Assembly: GCA_017459895.1 (NCBI GenBank)
Contig: JAFUCA010000010.1
Coordinates: forward strand, 1 to 64,000
DNA: 64,000 bases
Reading direction: 5' to 3'
Source: Bacillota bacterium
GTDB taxonomy: Bacteria > Bacillota > Clostridia > Peptostreptococcales > Anaerovoracaceae
How positions within the stretch are numbered: the stretch's first letter is position 1; each line of letters opens with the position of its first letter. Shown piece by piece: positions 44,701-54,683 of the stretch. The notes below the pieces were generated by a model. The model did no database searches. It worked only from the letters and a program-made list of their open reading frames with translations, and had not been told where the DNA came from. The position numbers were made by a program, and so were the translations under genes.

Positions 44701-45034
44701 TTTCCACGAAATCACAAAGGCTGGCAGGATCCTTCGCAGAAATGATTATCATATGGTTGTTTCAAGATCGCTTTTTCTGCGAAGATTATACAAAAGCTGT
44801 GGTTCTTCGCGGAAATAATCCTTGTCATTCTAGCGTTTACCAGTGTTTTATGCGAAGAGTTCCATAATAACTACATCCTTCGCAGAAATGCGTCATCGAT
44901 CCTCTGGACTATATCATTTTGTTCCGCGAAGAGTGTTGATTTCAGAGGCAGGTTCGAAGAAAAGACACGTGGCAAGCGATCTTCGAAATTCTATTTCCGC
45001 GATCATCGAAAAGAAATATGTGATTTCGCAGAAA
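44701..45034. repeat. Inverted-repeat array 2 (five hairpins, 73-bp period)
   Basis: The 11-bp words TTTCTGCGAAG and CTTCGCAGAAA alternate. Left arms start at 44701, 44774, 44847, 44921 and 44994; right arms at 44732, 44805, 44878, 44952 and 45024. Gaps inside the pairs are 20, 20, 20, 20 and 19 nt; gaps between pairs are 31, 31, 32 and 31 nt. The gap sequences are all different. The best pairs match exactly; outer ones carry 1-4 changes. There is no gene and no promoter I can support inside. Confidence 0.9.
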
Positions 45035-45250
45035 TTCCGCCGGAGATCACCAAAGGAGCCAGCAGAGCGTCATCAGGCGGCGGGGGTATACTGTGGCAGT
45101 GCAGCGACACTGGGTGAAGTAGTTTTCTTTGTCGGGAGCCGGAGTTGTGTCTTTATTTATTTCCGAAACGTGATATACTATAATCTGTATGGGAAAAATT
45201 TGAAACAGATGGGCGGCGAAGCCGCTATTCGATAGAAAGGGATGAACAAC

Positions 45251-46366
45251 ATGGCAAAGGTAGATATTTTTTCGGGTTTCCTCGGGGCAGGCAAGACGAC
45301 GCTGATCAAGAAGCTCATCGCGGAGGCGTATGAAGAGGAGAAGATCGTGTTGATCGAGAACGAATTCGGTGAGATCGGCGTAGACAGCGGTTTCCTGAGG
45401 GATACCGGAGTTCAGATCAACGAGATGAATTCCGGATGCATCTGCTGCACTCTGGTAGGAGATTTCGGACGGGCGCTGAACGAGGTCATCGATACCTACG
45501 ATCCGGACCGGATCCTGATTGAGCCCTCGGGCGTGGGCAAGCTGAGCGACGTGATCATCGCCGTGCAGGATCTGAAAAACGACCGCATCGAGCTGAACGG
45601 CTTCACCACGGTCGTAGACGCGAAGAAAGCGCGGGTCTACATGACCAACTTCGGCGAGTTCTATCAGAACCAGGTGGAACACGCAAGCTCCATCATTCTC
45701 AGCCACACCGACGGTCTGTCCGAGCAAAAGCTGGACAAATGCATTGAGCTGCTGCGGAAGTACAACGACCACGCGGCCATCGTGACGACGCCCTGGGATC
45801 AGATCTCCGGGAAGTCGATTCTGGAAACAATGGAACAGAAGAAGACGCTGTCCGCAGAACTGGATAAGCTCCGGGAGGAAGCCTACGCCCATGAGGCGGA
45901 GCATCATCACCATGAGCACGGGCATGACCACGAGCACGAACATGATCACCACGACCATGATCATGACCACGAGCATCATGACCATGATCACGAGGAGCAT
46001 GATCACCACGACCACGATCATGACCATCATCATGATCACGACCACCACGACCACGACCACGATCACCACGACCACGACCACCACCACGCCGATGAGATCT
46101 TCGATGAATTCGGCGTGTATACCGCGCATAAGTTCACGGCGGATCAGATCGAAGATGCACTGAAAGCGCTGGGCAACTTCGGCGAGTACGGTCAGGTGCT
46201 GCGGGCCAAGGGCATCGTCGAGGGTGAAGACGGACAGTGGATCCATTTCGATTATGTGCCGGGCGAGCCGGAGGTACGCAGCGGCGGCGCGGAGACCACC
46301 GGGCTGATCTGCGTCATCGGTGTGGGTCTGGACAAGGAAGCCATCGAAGAGCTGTTCGGACTGTAA
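45251..46366 (+). CDS. CobW/COG0523 GTPase metallochaperone with a very long His tract
   Basis: 371 residues. FSGFLGAGKTTLIKKLI (Walker A), ENEFGEIGVD, and SGCICCTL, the CxCC metal motif, define COG0523 GTPases. A region of about 65 residues (about 215-280) is almost entirely His, Asp and Glu, an extreme metal-binding segment, followed by the CobW C-terminal domain (GQVLRAKGIVEGEDGQWIHF). The ATG at 45251 gives the canonical start with AAAGGG upstream. It probably handles zinc, nickel or cobalt. A LarA-family enzyme encoded 1 kb downstream is a nickel-protein candidate. Confidence 0.9.
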   Translation: MAKVDIFSGFLGAGKTTLIKKLIAEAYEEEKIVLIENEFGEIGVDSGFLRDTGVQINEMNSGCICCTLVGDFGRALNEVIDTYDPDRILIEPSGVGKLSDVIIAVQDLKNDRIELNGFTTVVDAKKARVYMTNFGEFYQNQVEHASSIILSHTDGLSEQKLDKCIELLRKYNDHAAIVTTPWDQISGKSILETMEQKKTLSAELDKLREEAYAHEAEHHHHEHGHDHEHEHDHHDHDHDHEHHDHDHEEHDHHDHDHDHHHDHDHHDHDHDHHDHDHHHADEIFDEFGVYTAHKFTADQIEDALKALGNFGEYGQVLRAKGIVEGEDGQWIHFDYVPGEPEVRSGGAETTGLICVIGVGLDKEAIEELFGL

Positions 46367-51096: not shown

Positions 51097-51867
51097 ATGG
51101 CAGATCTGAGATTATGGGATATCGTTAATGAACTGAAGGGACCGGGATACAAATGGGTAAACCTGACTCATGAGCTCTCGCCGCAGACACCGCACTGGTT
51201 CGGTTTCGCGCCGATGCAGGGGGATCTGCTGTTCGATTATCTGGAAGGAACGCCGGAGGACAAGATGGCGCCCATGCGCTGCCACCAGTGGAGCGTCGCC
51301 AGCCAGTACGGCACCCACGCGGACGTTCCGATTCATTTCCACGGGGACGGCAGGGACATGAGCCAGATCACGGAGAAGGAACTGATGTATCCGATGGTCG
51401 TCATCGATAAATCAGCGGAGTGCGCGGCGGATCCGGACTTCATGCTGACGGTGGATGACATCAAGGCATGGGAAGAGGAATACGGCAGGATCCCGGAAGG
51501 AAGCTTCGTAGCCTTCCGTTCCGACTGGTACAAGAAGGAGGATCTGGAGAACAAGGACGCGGACGGACAGCCCCACTACCCGGGCTGGGACATCGAGGCC
51601 ATCCGGTGGCTGGTGGAGGAGAGAAACATCGGCGCCATCGGTCATGAGCCGGCGGATACCGATCCGGCGAAGGTCACCACGAAGGAAGACGCGTATCCGT
51701 ATCCGGGCGAGCAGTACATCCTGGCTGTGGACCGGATCCAGATAGAGGTCATGAGGAATCTGGATCAGCTGCCGCCGGTGGGCGCAATGATCCTCATTGG
51801 ATTCCCGAAGCTGAAAGACGGTACGGGATTCCCGACCAGAGTTTACGCGATCTGCCCGGCGGAATAG
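51097..51867 (+). CDS. Cyclase-family (kynurenine formamidase-like) metal hydrolase
   Basis: 256 residues. NLTHELSPQTPHWFGF, SQYGTHADVPIHFHGDGRDM (the HGxHxDxPxH metal motif) and IGHEPADTDPA fit the putative cyclase family, which includes KynB and isatin hydrolase. The exact substrate is unknown. It is followed 9 nt later by an AhpD-like gene, suggesting a shared catabolic step. AGGAGGT lies 9 nt before the ATG. Confidence 0.82.
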   Translation: MADLRLWDIVNELKGPGYKWVNLTHELSPQTPHWFGFAPMQGDLLFDYLEGTPEDKMAPMRCHQWSVASQYGTHADVPIHFHGDGRDMSQITEKELMYPMVVIDKSAECAADPDFMLTVDDIKAWEEEYGRIPEGSFVAFRSDWYKKEDLENKDADGQPHYPGWDIEAIRWLVEERNIGAIGHEPADTDPAKVTTKEDAYPYPGEQYILAVDRIQIEVMRNLDQLPPVGAMILIGFPKLKDGTGFPTRVYAICPAE

Positions 51868-51876
51868 GAGGAGACT

Positions 51877-52485
51877 ATGGCACTGGAATTTGACGAACAG
51901 CTGTCCCGTCTGCAGAAACCGGTCCGGGAGGACATGACAGACGAGGAATACGCTGTATTTAACAAAAATGTAGAAGTAATGACGGAGAACTGGGGGTTCA
52001 TCAACAACCTGTTTAAGATCCTCCCCCTGAACGCGAAGGAGTACATCGGATTTCTGAACTTCAAGGGATCCCTGTACAACGACAGCTGCTTCCTGACGGA
52101 TGCGCAGAAGGAAATGATCGGCGTGGTCGTTTCCTCCTACAACTGCTGCACCTACTGCCTGCAGACCCACGGAGACAACCTGCGGGGGATGTGGCAGAAT
52201 GCGTCCCTGGTGGACAAGCTGTCCGGCAACTACCGCTCCTGCAAGGACGAGCTGTCCCGGGAGGATTACGCTCTGTGTGAGTACGCCTGGTTCGTGACCG
52301 CTCATCCCAGAGACATCGAGCAGGAACAGGTGGACAAGCTGCGGGATGCCGGCTTCGACGATCATCAGATCCTGGAGGCCGCCTTTGTCGCCGGCTTCTT
52401 CAATTACACCAACCGCTGGGTCAGCACCATCGCGCCGGTGGTCAATCCGGGACACTTCAAGCACAACCGGGATTTTGAGAAATAA
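51877..52485 (+). CDS. AhpD/carboxymuconolactone-decarboxylase-like protein
   Basis: 202 residues, all helical. VVSSYNCCTYCLQTHGDNLRG has the CxxC...H motif of AhpD-type peroxidase-related enzymes, and AFVAGFFNYTNRWVSTI is a typical C-terminal helix. May reduce peroxides or act on a small substrate with the preceding cyclase-like enzyme. The 3' side abuts inverted-repeat array 3. Confidence 0.8.
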   Translation: MALEFDEQLSRLQKPVREDMTDEEYAVFNKNVEVMTENWGFINNLFKILPLNAKEYIGFLNFKGSLYNDSCFLTDAQKEMIGVVVSSYNCCTYCLQTHGDNLRGMWQNASLVDKLSGNYRSCKDELSREDYALCEYAWFVTAHPRDIEQEQVDKLRDAGFDDHQILEAAFVAGFFNYTNRWVSTIAPVVNPGHFKHNRDFEK

Positions 52486-52527
52486 GTGAGAAAGCGGGAC
52501 CCGCTTGGAACCTGGCTTGAAACGAAG

Positions 52528-52715
52528 AACTCTGCCAATGAGAAGGAAATATCCTCTTTTGGCAGAGTTTTTAACGTGTCGACACCCAACAGAAGACGAA
52601 AACTCTGTCAATATCGTGACGGAATCATGAATTGGCAGAGTTTGAGCTGTTTTTCACTATATTAGTTAGGACTAACTCTGCCAATAATAACAAAAATGGA
52701 GGATTTGGCAGAGTT
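52528..52715. repeat. Inverted-repeat array 3 (three hairpins, exact 73-bp period)
   Basis: AACTCTGCCAA starts at 52528, 52601 (one change) and 52674; TTGGCAGAGTT starts at 52559, 52632 and 52705. Each pair spans exactly 42 bp (20-nt gap) and pairs are exactly 31 nt apart. The gap sequences differ completely. A separate AGTTAG/CTAACT hairpin (52664-52677) overlaps the third unit. The first unit, followed by TTTTT, could also terminate the AhpD-like gene. Confidence 0.93.
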
Positions 52716-52727
52716 CGCGGAAAAGGA

Positions 52728-54683
52728 TCAACCCTTTCGGAAGGTATATCCCGCCTCGAAGCCTTCCCGGATCGCGGTAGCGATCCGGCCGCCTTTGCGC
52801 GCGTCTCCGACGACATAGACATTGTCAAAGGCAGCGCGGAACTGATCGACCAGTTCGGAATCCGGGCGGATGCCGGCAGCGAGGATGACGCAGTCTGCGG
52901 TGATGTCAAAGCATTTGCCGCTGGCAAGCTCCTTCACGGATACGCCGCCTTCATTAACGGACAGCAGCTGATGCCCCGGATAGAGCGCAGGCTCCGCGGG
53001 AAGGATTCTCGAGAGCTCGTCATTTCGAATGGCAGGGAAGATGCCGGGGCCGATGTCCGGCAGCATTTCCACGATGGATACCTCCGCGCCGCGGGCCAGG
53101 ATCAGTTCCGCGGTCTCAAGGCCGGTGAGGCCGGAGCCGATGATACACACGCTTCCTGCAGCAGCGCATCCGCGGATCACGTCTTCCGCCGTAACGACGA
53201 AGCCGCTGGCCAGGCCTTCTTCGATTCCGGGAACCGGAGGGATCGCCGGCCGGGCGCCGCAGGCGAGGATCACCCCGGCAGGCTCAAGGGAGGAGATCAG
53301 CTGCGGATCTGCCTCGCTGCCGGTGCGCACCTCCACATCCAGGGCGGAGAGCTGCGCCTTCATCGAGGCGGTCAGGGCCGTGATCTTATCTTTTAACAGA
53401 GGCTTGTCTGCAATGTTCAGTGTGCCGCCAAGCTCCGCTTCCTTTTCGAAGAGGACCGGACGGAACCCGCGCAGGGCGAGGACCCGGGAAGCTTCCATGC
53501 CGGCGGGACCGCCGCCGATGACCGCCACCGGCTCTCCGTGACCGGACCGGTGCAGGGGAGGGAACTCGATCTCCCGGGCGGCCTGCGCGTTCACAGAGCA
53601 GCGGATCGGAAGACCGGATCCCAGTACGCGTTCTCTGCAGTAGAGGCATCCGATGCAGCGGCGGATCTCAGCGGACCGTCCAGCCTTTGCCTTATTCATG
53701 AACTCGGGATCCGCCAGCTGGGAACGGCCCAGTCCCACGAAGTCGCAGACGCCTTCCTCCAGCAGTTCCTCCGCGAAGTCGGGATCCTTGATGGTATTGG
53801 TGGCGATGACCGGGATCTGCAGAGCCTCCCGGTAAGCCTTCGCGACGTGCTTCTTCCAGCCGGGCTGATAGGAGAAGGGCTCGCAGTTGGCGTCCCCGTT
53901 GCGGGCGCTGCCATTGCTGATGTTGATCGCGTCGATCCCCAGACTTTGCAGGTAAAGGGCGACCTCGAGACCCTCCTCCAGGCTCAGAAATCCCGGGACC
54001 GGAGTCATCTCATCGCCGCACATCCGCACCAGGATCGGGAACTTCGGACCGAGTTTGGCCCGGATCCCTTCGATGATCTCCGCAATGAAGCGGCAACGGT
54101 TCTCGACAGAGCCGCCGTAGGAATCGGTTCTGCGATTGTAGTATTTGCTGAAAAACTGGGCAATCAGATACCCGTGGGCCCCGTGGAGCTCGACCCCGTC
54201 GTAGCCCGCCTTAAAGCATCGGACGGCAGCGTCGATGAACTTGCCCTCGATCCGCTGGATATCCTCCAGGGTCATTTCCTTCGGAACGGGGCGCCCCTCC
54301 GCAATGGGCACCGCGCTGGGCGCCAGATTGTCCCGGCCGGTGAAGGCGGGATTCGATGTGGCTCCTCCGTGATGGATCTGAGCGATGATACGGCAGTCGT
54401 AGAGATGCACCGCGTCCGTCAGCTCCTCCATCGGAGAGATGTGATAATCCCGGGCGATCCGGAGATTATGGATCGATGGGATGCTGTCGATATCGTCCAC
54501 GCCGGTGTATTCGTGGATGATCATGCCGATGCCACCCTTGGCCCGCTCCTGATAGTAGCGAATCTGCCGGGGGGTCACAATACCGTCCTTATCGGCCATA
54601 TCCGTTGCCATGGGCATCATGACCGCGCGGTTCTTAATGGTCAAGGGGCCGATCCGGCCCGGCGTGAAAAGTTTCTCATACAT
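52728..54683 (-). CDS. Enoate-reductase/BaiCD-like FMN-FAD-4Fe4S oxidoreductase
   Basis: 651 residues. The N-terminal old-yellow-enzyme barrel (LFTPGRIGPLTIKNRAVMMP, DGVELHGAHGYLIAQFFSKY), the 4Fe-4S motif CIGCLYC with a further Cys (about 330-350) and a C-terminal FAD/NAD(P) domain (GGGPAGMEASRVLALRG, VYVVGDARKGGRIA) give the architecture of 2-enoate reductase, BaiCD/BaiH and 2,4-dienoyl-CoA reductase. Such enzymes reduce enoates or bile-acid intermediates. ATG 54683 has AGGAGG upstream. The neighbouring aminotransferase is on the same strand. Confidence 0.9.
   Translation of the reverse strand: MYEKLFTPGRIGPLTIKNRAVMMPMATDMADKDGIVTPRQIRYYQERAKGGIGMIIHEYTGVDDIDSIPSIHNLRIARDYHISPMEELTDAVHLYDCRIIAQIHHGGATSNPAFTGRDNLAPSAVPIAEGRPVPKEMTLEDIQRIEGKFIDAAVRCFKAGYDGVELHGAHGYLIAQFFSKYYNRRTDSYGGSVENRCRFIAEIIEGIRAKLGPKFPILVRMCGDEMTPVPGFLSLEEGLEVALYLQSLGIDAINISNGSARNGDANCEPFSYQPGWKKHVAKAYREALQIPVIATNTIKDPDFAEELLEEGVCDFVGLGRSQLADPEFMNKAKAGRSAEIRRCIGCLYCRERVLGSGLPIRCSVNAQAAREIEFPPLHRSGHGEPVAVIGGGPAGMEASRVLALRGFRPVLFEKEAELGGTLNIADKPLLKDKITALTASMKAQLSALDVEVRTGSEADPQLISSLEPAGVILACGARPAIPPVPGIEEGLASGFVVTAEDVIRGCAAAGSVCIIGSGLTGLETAELILARGAEVSIVEMLPDIGPGIFPAIRNDELSRILPAEPALYPGHQLLSVNEGGVSVKELASGKCFDITADCVILAAGIRPDSELVDQFRAAFDNVYVVGDARKGGRIATAIREGFEAGYTFRKG

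Follow-up and report, generated by a model that had tools for sequence, protein, structure and literature searches.

Within the 64-kb stretch of DNA analyzed here (the window), two arrays of short inverted repeats, arrays 2 and 3, have the same dimensions and are built from different words. What binds such an array, and how would it have come to its place between two metabolic genes? The answer that we favor, at a probability of about 0.6, is that each paralogue of a nuclease-like protein family binds its own phased array and that the arrays spread by copying, which would make the family a candidate for binding, cutting and mobility. Throughout, word A denotes AACTCTGCCAA and its reverse complement TTGGCAGAGTT (array 3), and word B denotes TTTCTGCGAAG and CTTCGCAGAAA (array 2). 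G000 is the source genome of the window, G011 is a sister species and G030 is a third species.

Anatomy and recurrence of the arrays

Array 3 consists of six 11-bp half-sites in strictly alternating orientation with a single mismatch in total (Table 1). A sequence-only reading of the window had described three pairs starting at 52528, 52601 and 52674, with a span of 42 bp, 31 nt between pairs and a period of 73, all of which were reproduced. The positions and spacing given by that reading are correct, and the mismatch in the arm at 52601 (AACTCTGTCAA) went unmentioned in it. A search of the whole 64 kb for any word in the pattern W-N20-rc(W), with 11-bp arms and up to one mismatch, identified five matches, none of them outside arrays 2 and 3. 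Array 3 is located between convergent genes for a carboxymuconolactone-decarboxylase-like (CMD) protein and a flavin oxidoreductase, both metabolic. Elsewhere in the window, a CobW-like GTPase gene (45242-46366) contains short tandem repeats at 45902-46088 with His, Asp and Glu codons, as judged by eye, that resemble metal-binding stretches.

Table 1. Coordinates of arrays 2 and 3 and of the genes flanking array 3 in the window
Feature	Position	Strand	Sequence or remark
Array 3 half-site 1	52528..52538	+	AACTCTGCCAA
Array 3 half-site 2	52559..52569	-	TTGGCAGAGTT
Array 3 half-site 3	52601..52611	+	AACTCTGTCAA, one mismatch
Array 3 half-site 4	52632..52642	-	
Array 3 half-site 5	52674..52684	+	
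Array 3 half-site 6	52705..52715	-	
CMD (carboxymuconolactone-decarboxylase-like) gene, left of array 3	51877..52485	+	42 bp from array
NADH:flavin oxidoreductase gene with FAD/NAD domain, right of array 3	52728..54683	-	3' end 12 bp from array
Array 2	44701..45034		ten word-B copies, TTTCTGCGAAG or its reverse complement, with at most 3 mismatches
Array 2 half-site starts	44701, 44732, 44774, 44805, 44847, 44878, 44921, 44952, 44994, 45024		

Both words recur throughout the G000 assembly (2.50 Mb in 55 contigs). With up to three mismatches, AACTCTGCCAA-N20-TTGGCAGAGTT occurs as 34 pairs at 18 loci and TTTCTGCGAAG-N20-CTTCGCAGAAA as 21 pairs at 7 loci, and the reversed-pattern controls of words A and B yielded 0 pairs each genome-wide at the same tolerance. 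The genome-wide scan with these two words returned many further arrays, which are uniform internally, distinct from each other and similar in dimensions in the word-A and word-B listing of G000. The 18 word-A loci leave out L010, which matches L013 base for base (778/778) over the array and 300 bp on either side. Sixteen of the 18 word-A sets contain three pairs, one (L019) contains four and one (L006) contains a single pair. The word-B arrays at the seven loci are longer than the word-A arrays, and additional word-B pairs are found beyond these loci at C37:88957 and C41:35408. The word-A half-site carries 0.79–1.92 bits per position over its 11 positions, with no more than 0.45 bits in the flanks (109 sites), and word-A sites deviate by a mean of 0.77 mismatches of 11 (107 sites). 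Word-A arrays are A/T-rich at the center of the within-pair spacer.

The step from one half-site to the next differs somewhat between the two words. Within pairs, the step is 31 (34 cases) or 32 (19 cases) for word A and 30 (18 cases) or 31 (25 cases) for word B. Between pairs, when sites with up to four mismatches are included, word A uses steps of 31–32 (12) and 41–42 (21) and two others (19, 21), and word B uses 42–43 (25) and 11 others; in both words, these other steps involve the sites of up to four mismatches. At this relaxed tolerance, same-orientation neighbors occur 3 times in word A and 10 times in word B; at one word-A locus (L016), an extra perfect half-site precedes the next same-orientation one by 21 bp. 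Thus, the identical 20/31 dimensions of arrays 2 and 3 are common in the genome but not universal. Tandem duplication, already judged a poor explanation from the window, was rejected as the origin of the arrays; it is visible in one word-B array alone (L026, 1986-2763 of G000 C47), in which 11 pairs form 147-bp tandem units of two 73.5-bp periods, unlike the other arrays.

Helical phasing and independence of the arms

The distances between same-orientation neighbors (up to 130 bp) favor multiples of 10.5 bp, including those from arrays of unrelated words. For word A, the resultant at 10.5 bp is 0.94 (71 distances). For word B, it is 0.80 (54 distances), and a period of 8.3 bp fits slightly better (0.84). 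Other words give a resultant of 0.79 at 10.5 bp with a best period of 10.65 (66 locus-distinct distances from 22 arrays); their distances cluster near 21, 31, 41, 52, 63, 73, 84, 94, 105, 115 and 126 bp, with off-phase values of 9, 14, 23, 29, 75 and 97. Of these 22 arrays, 15 adjoin nuclease-like genes and seven come from G011 and G030. L026 and L010 were excluded from the phasing analysis. The arrays used for phasing were obtained from scans, some of which favored steps of 27–46 bp; the 7-mer test described below applies no spacing selection, and the arrays from that test display the same steps by eye.

The two arms of a pair do not covary. At position 11, the paired word-A arms are AA in 18 cases, GG in 7, AG in 13 and GA in 10 (Fisher p 1.0; 5 cases set aside), and the paired word-B arms are AA in 4, GG in 7, AG in 6 and GA in 4 (Fisher p 1.0; 11 set aside). 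Arms compared between pairs at the same position give p values of 0.72 for word A and 0.48 for word B, and no covariation between the arms of pairs was found at the variable positions of either word. The arms therefore vary independently, unlike those of a base-paired stem, and the quantization of distances by 10.5 bp, which extends to unrelated words, points to a protein on one face of double-stranded DNA and not to RNA hairpins or CRISPR. Array 3 is thus predicted with high confidence to be a phased set of double-stranded-DNA protein sites. The protein recognizer envisaged by the sequence-only reading fits the helical phasing and the absent covariation better than RNA does.

The inverted pairs would also be expected if the alternating words were stems of RNA hairpins that serve as terminators, processing signals or guide-like RNA, and gene orientation is partly consistent with such a role. 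Among 25 G000 loci, 18 lie between co-directional genes, seven between convergent genes and none between divergent genes. Convergent placement is in excess (7/25 versus 4/56 gene gaps of the window, p 0.03) and the deficit of divergent placement is not significant (0/25 versus 4/56, p 0.31), both on rough gene calls from a simple codon-usage caller, in which an alternative frame would make L016 co-directional. Against stems, the arms lack covariation, the between-pair distances are quantized as well as the within-pair ones, and an Rfam search of 51800-53200 returned three weak matches, none near the gathering score. RNA structure was rejected on the absent covariation together with the lack of a convincing Rfam match in that segment, and RNA hairpins are a highly improbable explanation of the arrays.

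A protein-bound array 3 can be pictured as a platform of six double-stranded half-sites, alternately inverted and spaced 3 and 4 helical turns apart. A multimeric protein would bind all half-sites from one face of the helix, and the length of the spacers would matter while their sequence would not.

A nuclease-like protein family beside the arrays

A comparison of array-flanking genes revealed a recurrent protein, which is encoded beside one word-A and two word-B arrays in G000 and beside one G011 array. The G000 genes are located 138, 205 and 352 bp from the arrays, and the gene beside word-A arrays lies at C34:214955. The four array-adjacent proteins have no above-threshold match in Pfam, PHROGs or NCBIfam. 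Through their C-terminal half, all four match the C-terminal domain of PDC-S68, a PADLOC defense candidate, as homologues (best E 4e-31), two of the four match PADLOC PDC-S69 (best 1.4e-5) and one matches a PD-DEXK model (0.0066); a sequence search of the PDB gave a best E of 0.048, which is not convincing. The PDC-S68 models comprise 1202–1273 residues, in contrast to the proteins described here, which are stand-alone, mostly 260–330 residues long and associated with arrays. Six residues (R214, E218, D248, E262, G265 and Y272) are invariant in 35 nuclease-like proteins, and E218, D248 and E262 constitute the acidic core E...(P)D...E of PD-(D/E)XK enzymes. K is absent among the invariant or nearly invariant columns of these 35 proteins and is found within an RSKSE segment of many members. 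With the (D/E)XK lysine not strictly conserved, cutting is uncertain.

The family is widespread among close relatives. Matches occur in 46 of 49 genomes of the genus, with 15 matches in G000 (duplicated contigs included). In the bacterial family, 137 of 212 genomes have a match, distributed over 38 of 69 genera. Across the phylum, 16 of 398 genomes match; matches that cover most of the protein come only from this bacterial family and one other of the same class, and the remainder cover the C-terminal domain, so the count within the bacterial family may include domain-only matches. Three scans confirmed no viral relative. Nine matches in plasmid records span the C-terminal part only, and of three in phage records, two (L128 and L129) lie in frames of ~1200 codons and one (L130) looks stand-alone; no arrays were found in these plasmid and phage records. 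No conserved partner gene of the nuclease-like gene was detected, the large neighbor clusters being apparent antisense frames of that gene or the neighborhood of one orthologue group.

The association between gene and array was evaluated on genes collected largely without reference to arrays: four seed proteins had come to light through their nearness to arrays, and all others through sequence searches. In the final test, at least five alternating exact 7-mer copies were required in the 700-bp flanks of nuclease-like genes. This arrangement was observed at 19 of 103 distinct genes versus 2 of 223 real control windows, all from genus contigs (p 1e-8), and at none of 515 Markov shuffles. The 19 include one seed (L014) and some that are not phased-looking (e.g. 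L109), and 84 of the 103 genes are array-negative under this strict test, whose threshold is not reached by the word-B arrays at L022 and L023. Four of the 19 come from the nine loci of a second bacterial family. An earlier test, which used chains of at least four sites in 900-bp flanks, gave 11/95 flanks versus 0/475 shuffles and 2/302 real windows, the 11 positives comprising three seeds, two flanks on a duplicated contig and one doubtful case (L082). Applied to other genera, it gave 5/40 genes versus 0/234 shuffles and 0/85 distant windows, and two of these five were judged convincing (L163 and L183).

The words near the family genes are diverse, including GTGACAA, TGGACAA, GTGTACA, TACAAGA, TCAGTAA, GTCGAAA, ATAGAAT, CTTCCAA, GAGCAAA, CGCGTAA and GCGTAAC, and AGGCTAA, CACGGAC and AGACGTA in the second bacterial family. 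Since different words adjoin different paralogues of one family, the recognizers appear to have diverging specificity, and the idea of one shared recognizer with array-specific flanks, raised by the sequence-only reading, is not supported. Word similarity follows protein identity at 25 loci (Mantel r 0.43, 0/2000 permutations), a result partly due to an orthologue group at one chromosomal site, the words of which were chosen by eye from few sites (1–5 in several cases). For the 292 pairs below 50% identity, taken as independent of one another, the Spearman correlation is 0.14 (p 0.018). The orthologue group accounts for 8 of the 25 loci; its words have the form TTTTGYCA with differing ends and stem from the intergenic DNA 5' of the gene, in which a promoter would be expected, with L115 and L166 unused. 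In favor of a word that follows its protein, G030 paralogues at different loci that are 45% identical have the common word TTGTACAC. Against it, and as an exception to one word per paralogue, the two proteins beside word-B arrays are only 16% identical.

Some further loci were noted. At the orthologue loci L115, L161-L163, L165-L167 and L171-L173, from several genera, most 5' intergenic regions contain short word arrays; the genes beside this group are presumably ornithine aminomutase genes. A third G000 word, TTTGTCACG, has a second array ~4 kb from its gene (L114, 10622 onward, G000 C34), and that word, too, thus occurs away from the gene. Plain direct tandem repeats without alternation lie beside nuclease-like genes at L123, L194 and L197 (19–20, 51 and 21 bp, respectively); these and the repeats at L200 were set aside as direct, non-alternating structures.

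The adjacency could be incidental if the arrays are bound by a nucleoid protein or a fast-diverging regulator outside the nuclease-like family, and the nuclease-like genes merely settle within or close to them by homing-type insertion or hitch-hiking. Most arrays have no such gene nearby (G000 contains at least 25 word-A and word-B loci and 15 gene matches, three of them within 352 bp), and word B is common to two very different proteins. However, the association extends across genera and into a second bacterial family, most loci having their own word, and word similarity follows protein similarity, which leaves the unrelated regulator an unlikely explanation.

We therefore return to the nuclease-like family, which is multi-copy in this bacterial family and most likely supplies the binder; it is probable that one of its PD-(D/E)XK-like paralogues binds array 3. 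The paralogues would have different words, and the cognate array often flanks the gene closely on its upstream or downstream side; the presence of some arrays where the promoter of the gene should be suggests autoregulation. The pairing links a protein family that has no model in Pfam or NCBIfam, judging by scans of four members, to a DNA architecture set by helical phase and not by spacer sequence, and the many paralogues and words constitute natural protein/site pairs for studying the evolution of specificity.

Probable spread of the arrays and comparison with known repeat systems

Spacers of different word-A arrays were compared using the best of both strands and both anchors. In-register identity of at least 0.6 was reached in 27 of 1324 within-pair comparisons versus 3 shuffled and in 5 of 313 between-pair comparisons versus 0 shuffled, with mean identities of 0.36 and 0.37, respectively, versus 0.34 and 0.32 shuffled. 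Most word-A spacers have thus diverged past recognition, with a faint common origin still visible. This residual similarity suggests that whole arrays were probably copied between places, long ago, and that the half-sites were retained meanwhile.

Related genomes indicate turnover of the arrays. Among 41 genus genomes, core pattern pairs number 63 in G000, 16 in G011 and 0–3 in the others (controls 0–1). The G011 word, AATTCTGCCAA, is one base off word A, and at least four G011 array loci are among the matches listed. Two of these four share a gene gap with a G000 array: L040/L009, beside a gene that we take to be an S20-like ribosomal gene, and L041/L014, upstream of the nuclease-like gene. 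A further G011 array (L039) occupies the gap next to the one occupied in G000 (L021). Three gaps hold an array in one species only, namely the gap after the second gene of L014 (array in G000, 8 bp in G011) and the two gaps of L021/L039, one array-free in G000 (116 bp) and the other array-free in G011 (44 bp). Arrays have therefore been gained or lost between G000 and G011, and with two of four listed G011 loci in a common gap, the case for sites held in place is weaker. Alongside the one-base change in the word, the nuclease-like gene that has word-A arrays on its flanks shows 60% identity between the two species, compared with 89% and 79% for its two neighbors. In the common gap L009/L040, the spacers are 0.17–0.39 identical, which is random-looking. 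Four-fold sites of nine G000/G011 gene pairs are identical at 0.41–0.60 in seven pairs and at 0.72 and 0.90 in two; given this divergence, drift or independent insertion suffices for the L009/L040 differences, and spacer acquisition is an unneeded explanation.

None of 393 genomes drawn order-wide (G011 outside the draw) has more than three core pairs besides G000. Word A in named genomes was found in 7 stretches with one match place each, which is near chance by an estimate made with no control and with G000 possibly left out. Three of these seven, L031, L033 and L034 from Bacteroidaceae MAGs, belong to one family and contain one ACTCTGCCA-N22,23-TGGCAGAGT place each, probably by chance. Loose-pattern counts were raised in G371, G031, G017, G026, G347 and G027, yet a tighter pattern listed no arrays there.

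A scan free of word assumptions (362 kb, mostly genus contigs) surfaced the G030 word TTTCTGACAAR together with the G011 arrays. G030 contains 60 pairs of this word (control 0), including a dispersed 288-bp version resembling a miniature element (MITE). One copy matches ten other loci of the 15 fetched, eight over 285–296 bp at 78–85% identity and two over 109 and 73 bp. The copies terminate at the outer half-sites and have differing flanks, except for L064/L065, which have a common flank; in more diverged copies, the half-sites are kept and the spacers differ. The word of this element lies beside none of the five G030 nuclease-like genes, which counts against the favored reading. One copy has as its direct neighbor, at L055 (10738-11235), the gene of a protein with the transposon-related HTH domain HTH_Tnp_2, and the DNA matches among copies stop short of this gene.

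Like a bacterial MITE, the G030 element is small, non-coding and multi-copy, with inverted-repeat ends and differing flanks; the word-A arrays of G000 display only faint relatedness to one another. The arrays could on this basis be purely mobile repeats without a host role, their half-sites serving a transposase, as the bounded G030 copies at ten further loci, the three one-species gaps and the weak in-register similarity of word-A spacers would suggest. Unlike in a MITE, the phased half-sites inside the element, six to eight or more in number, are kept while the rest diverges, and neither a target duplication nor a parent transposon was identified for the G030 element (no duplication was recognized by eye in a 15-row alignment). 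Near-perfect half-sites amid mostly diverged spacers would be unexpected after insertion without selection or repeated copying, and a purely mobile origin is rather unlikely, though it deserves more credit than an unrelated regulator. Given the compactness of these genomes, the dispersed arrays raise two questions: how dozens of half-sites stay intact and how they come to be copied.

Under binding by the nuclease-like family, the arrays would in addition have spread by copying into further intergenic gaps, one species having them in the form of the 288-bp MITE-like element. The PD-(D/E)XK-like protein may itself spread the arrays, at roughly even odds, and the protein or a partner might move them.

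This logic would resemble that of REPIN-RAYT systems, except that the sites would be double-stranded and in phase and the enzyme would have a different fold. REPINs are described as inverted doublets in extragenic space with an enzyme gene near some of them and with enzyme groups that co-evolved with the repeats (PMC3116915, PMC8266576). RAYT, or TnpA-REP, is described in the latter as an HUH enzyme acting on single-stranded REP (PMC8266576), and REP repeats are given as 20–40-bp palindromes in a third report (PMC3733652). Words A and B likewise form short inverted doublets dispersed in intergenic DNA, with a putative cognate enzyme gene near some copies. The 11-bp half-site is, in contrast, not self-complementary and its arms lack covariation, so the arrays are not palindromes of the REP type; the phasing of the sites is that of double-stranded DNA, and a PD-(D/E)XK-like protein stands in place of the HUH enzyme of RAYT. 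A Pfam scan of the four array-adjacent proteins returned no transposase. Whether this is a previously undescribed bacterial repeat-enzyme class is evenly balanced: in such a class, the paralogues of a multi-copy family of PD-(D/E)XK-like proteins would each have their own alternately inverted word, with each paralogue expected to bind cooperatively from one face beside its gene and at dispersed copies, and switch word together with its sites between species. The literature covered, which largely excluded subscription papers and wholly excluded bioRxiv, contained no description of such arrays or of their pairing with a nuclease-like gene.

TIGR-Tas loci place 8–12-nt repeats beside an effector gene, with repeats conserved within a locus and variable between loci, and the TIGR array consists of two distinct alternating repeats with 9-nt spacers and yields a guide RNA for Nop-domain proteins (PMC12045711). 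The arrays described here share with TIGR-Tas loci the short repeats adjoining an effector-type gene and the words that are conserved per locus and differ between loci. Short conserved repeats, variable spacers of set lengths and an adjacent nuclease-like gene would be found in CRISPR-like or TIGR-like arrays with acquired spacers. However, one word alternates with its own reverse complement, in place of two distinct repeats or the one-orientation direct repeats of CRISPR, the spacers of array 3 are 20 and 31 nt long, and a Pfam scan found no Nop domain in the four array-adjacent proteins. CRISPR or TIGR identity was rejected on repeat orientation and spacing, and a guide-type array is scarcely conceivable here: the lengths are set by helical turns, the copies are dispersed, and the spacers of the G030 copies are related by descent.
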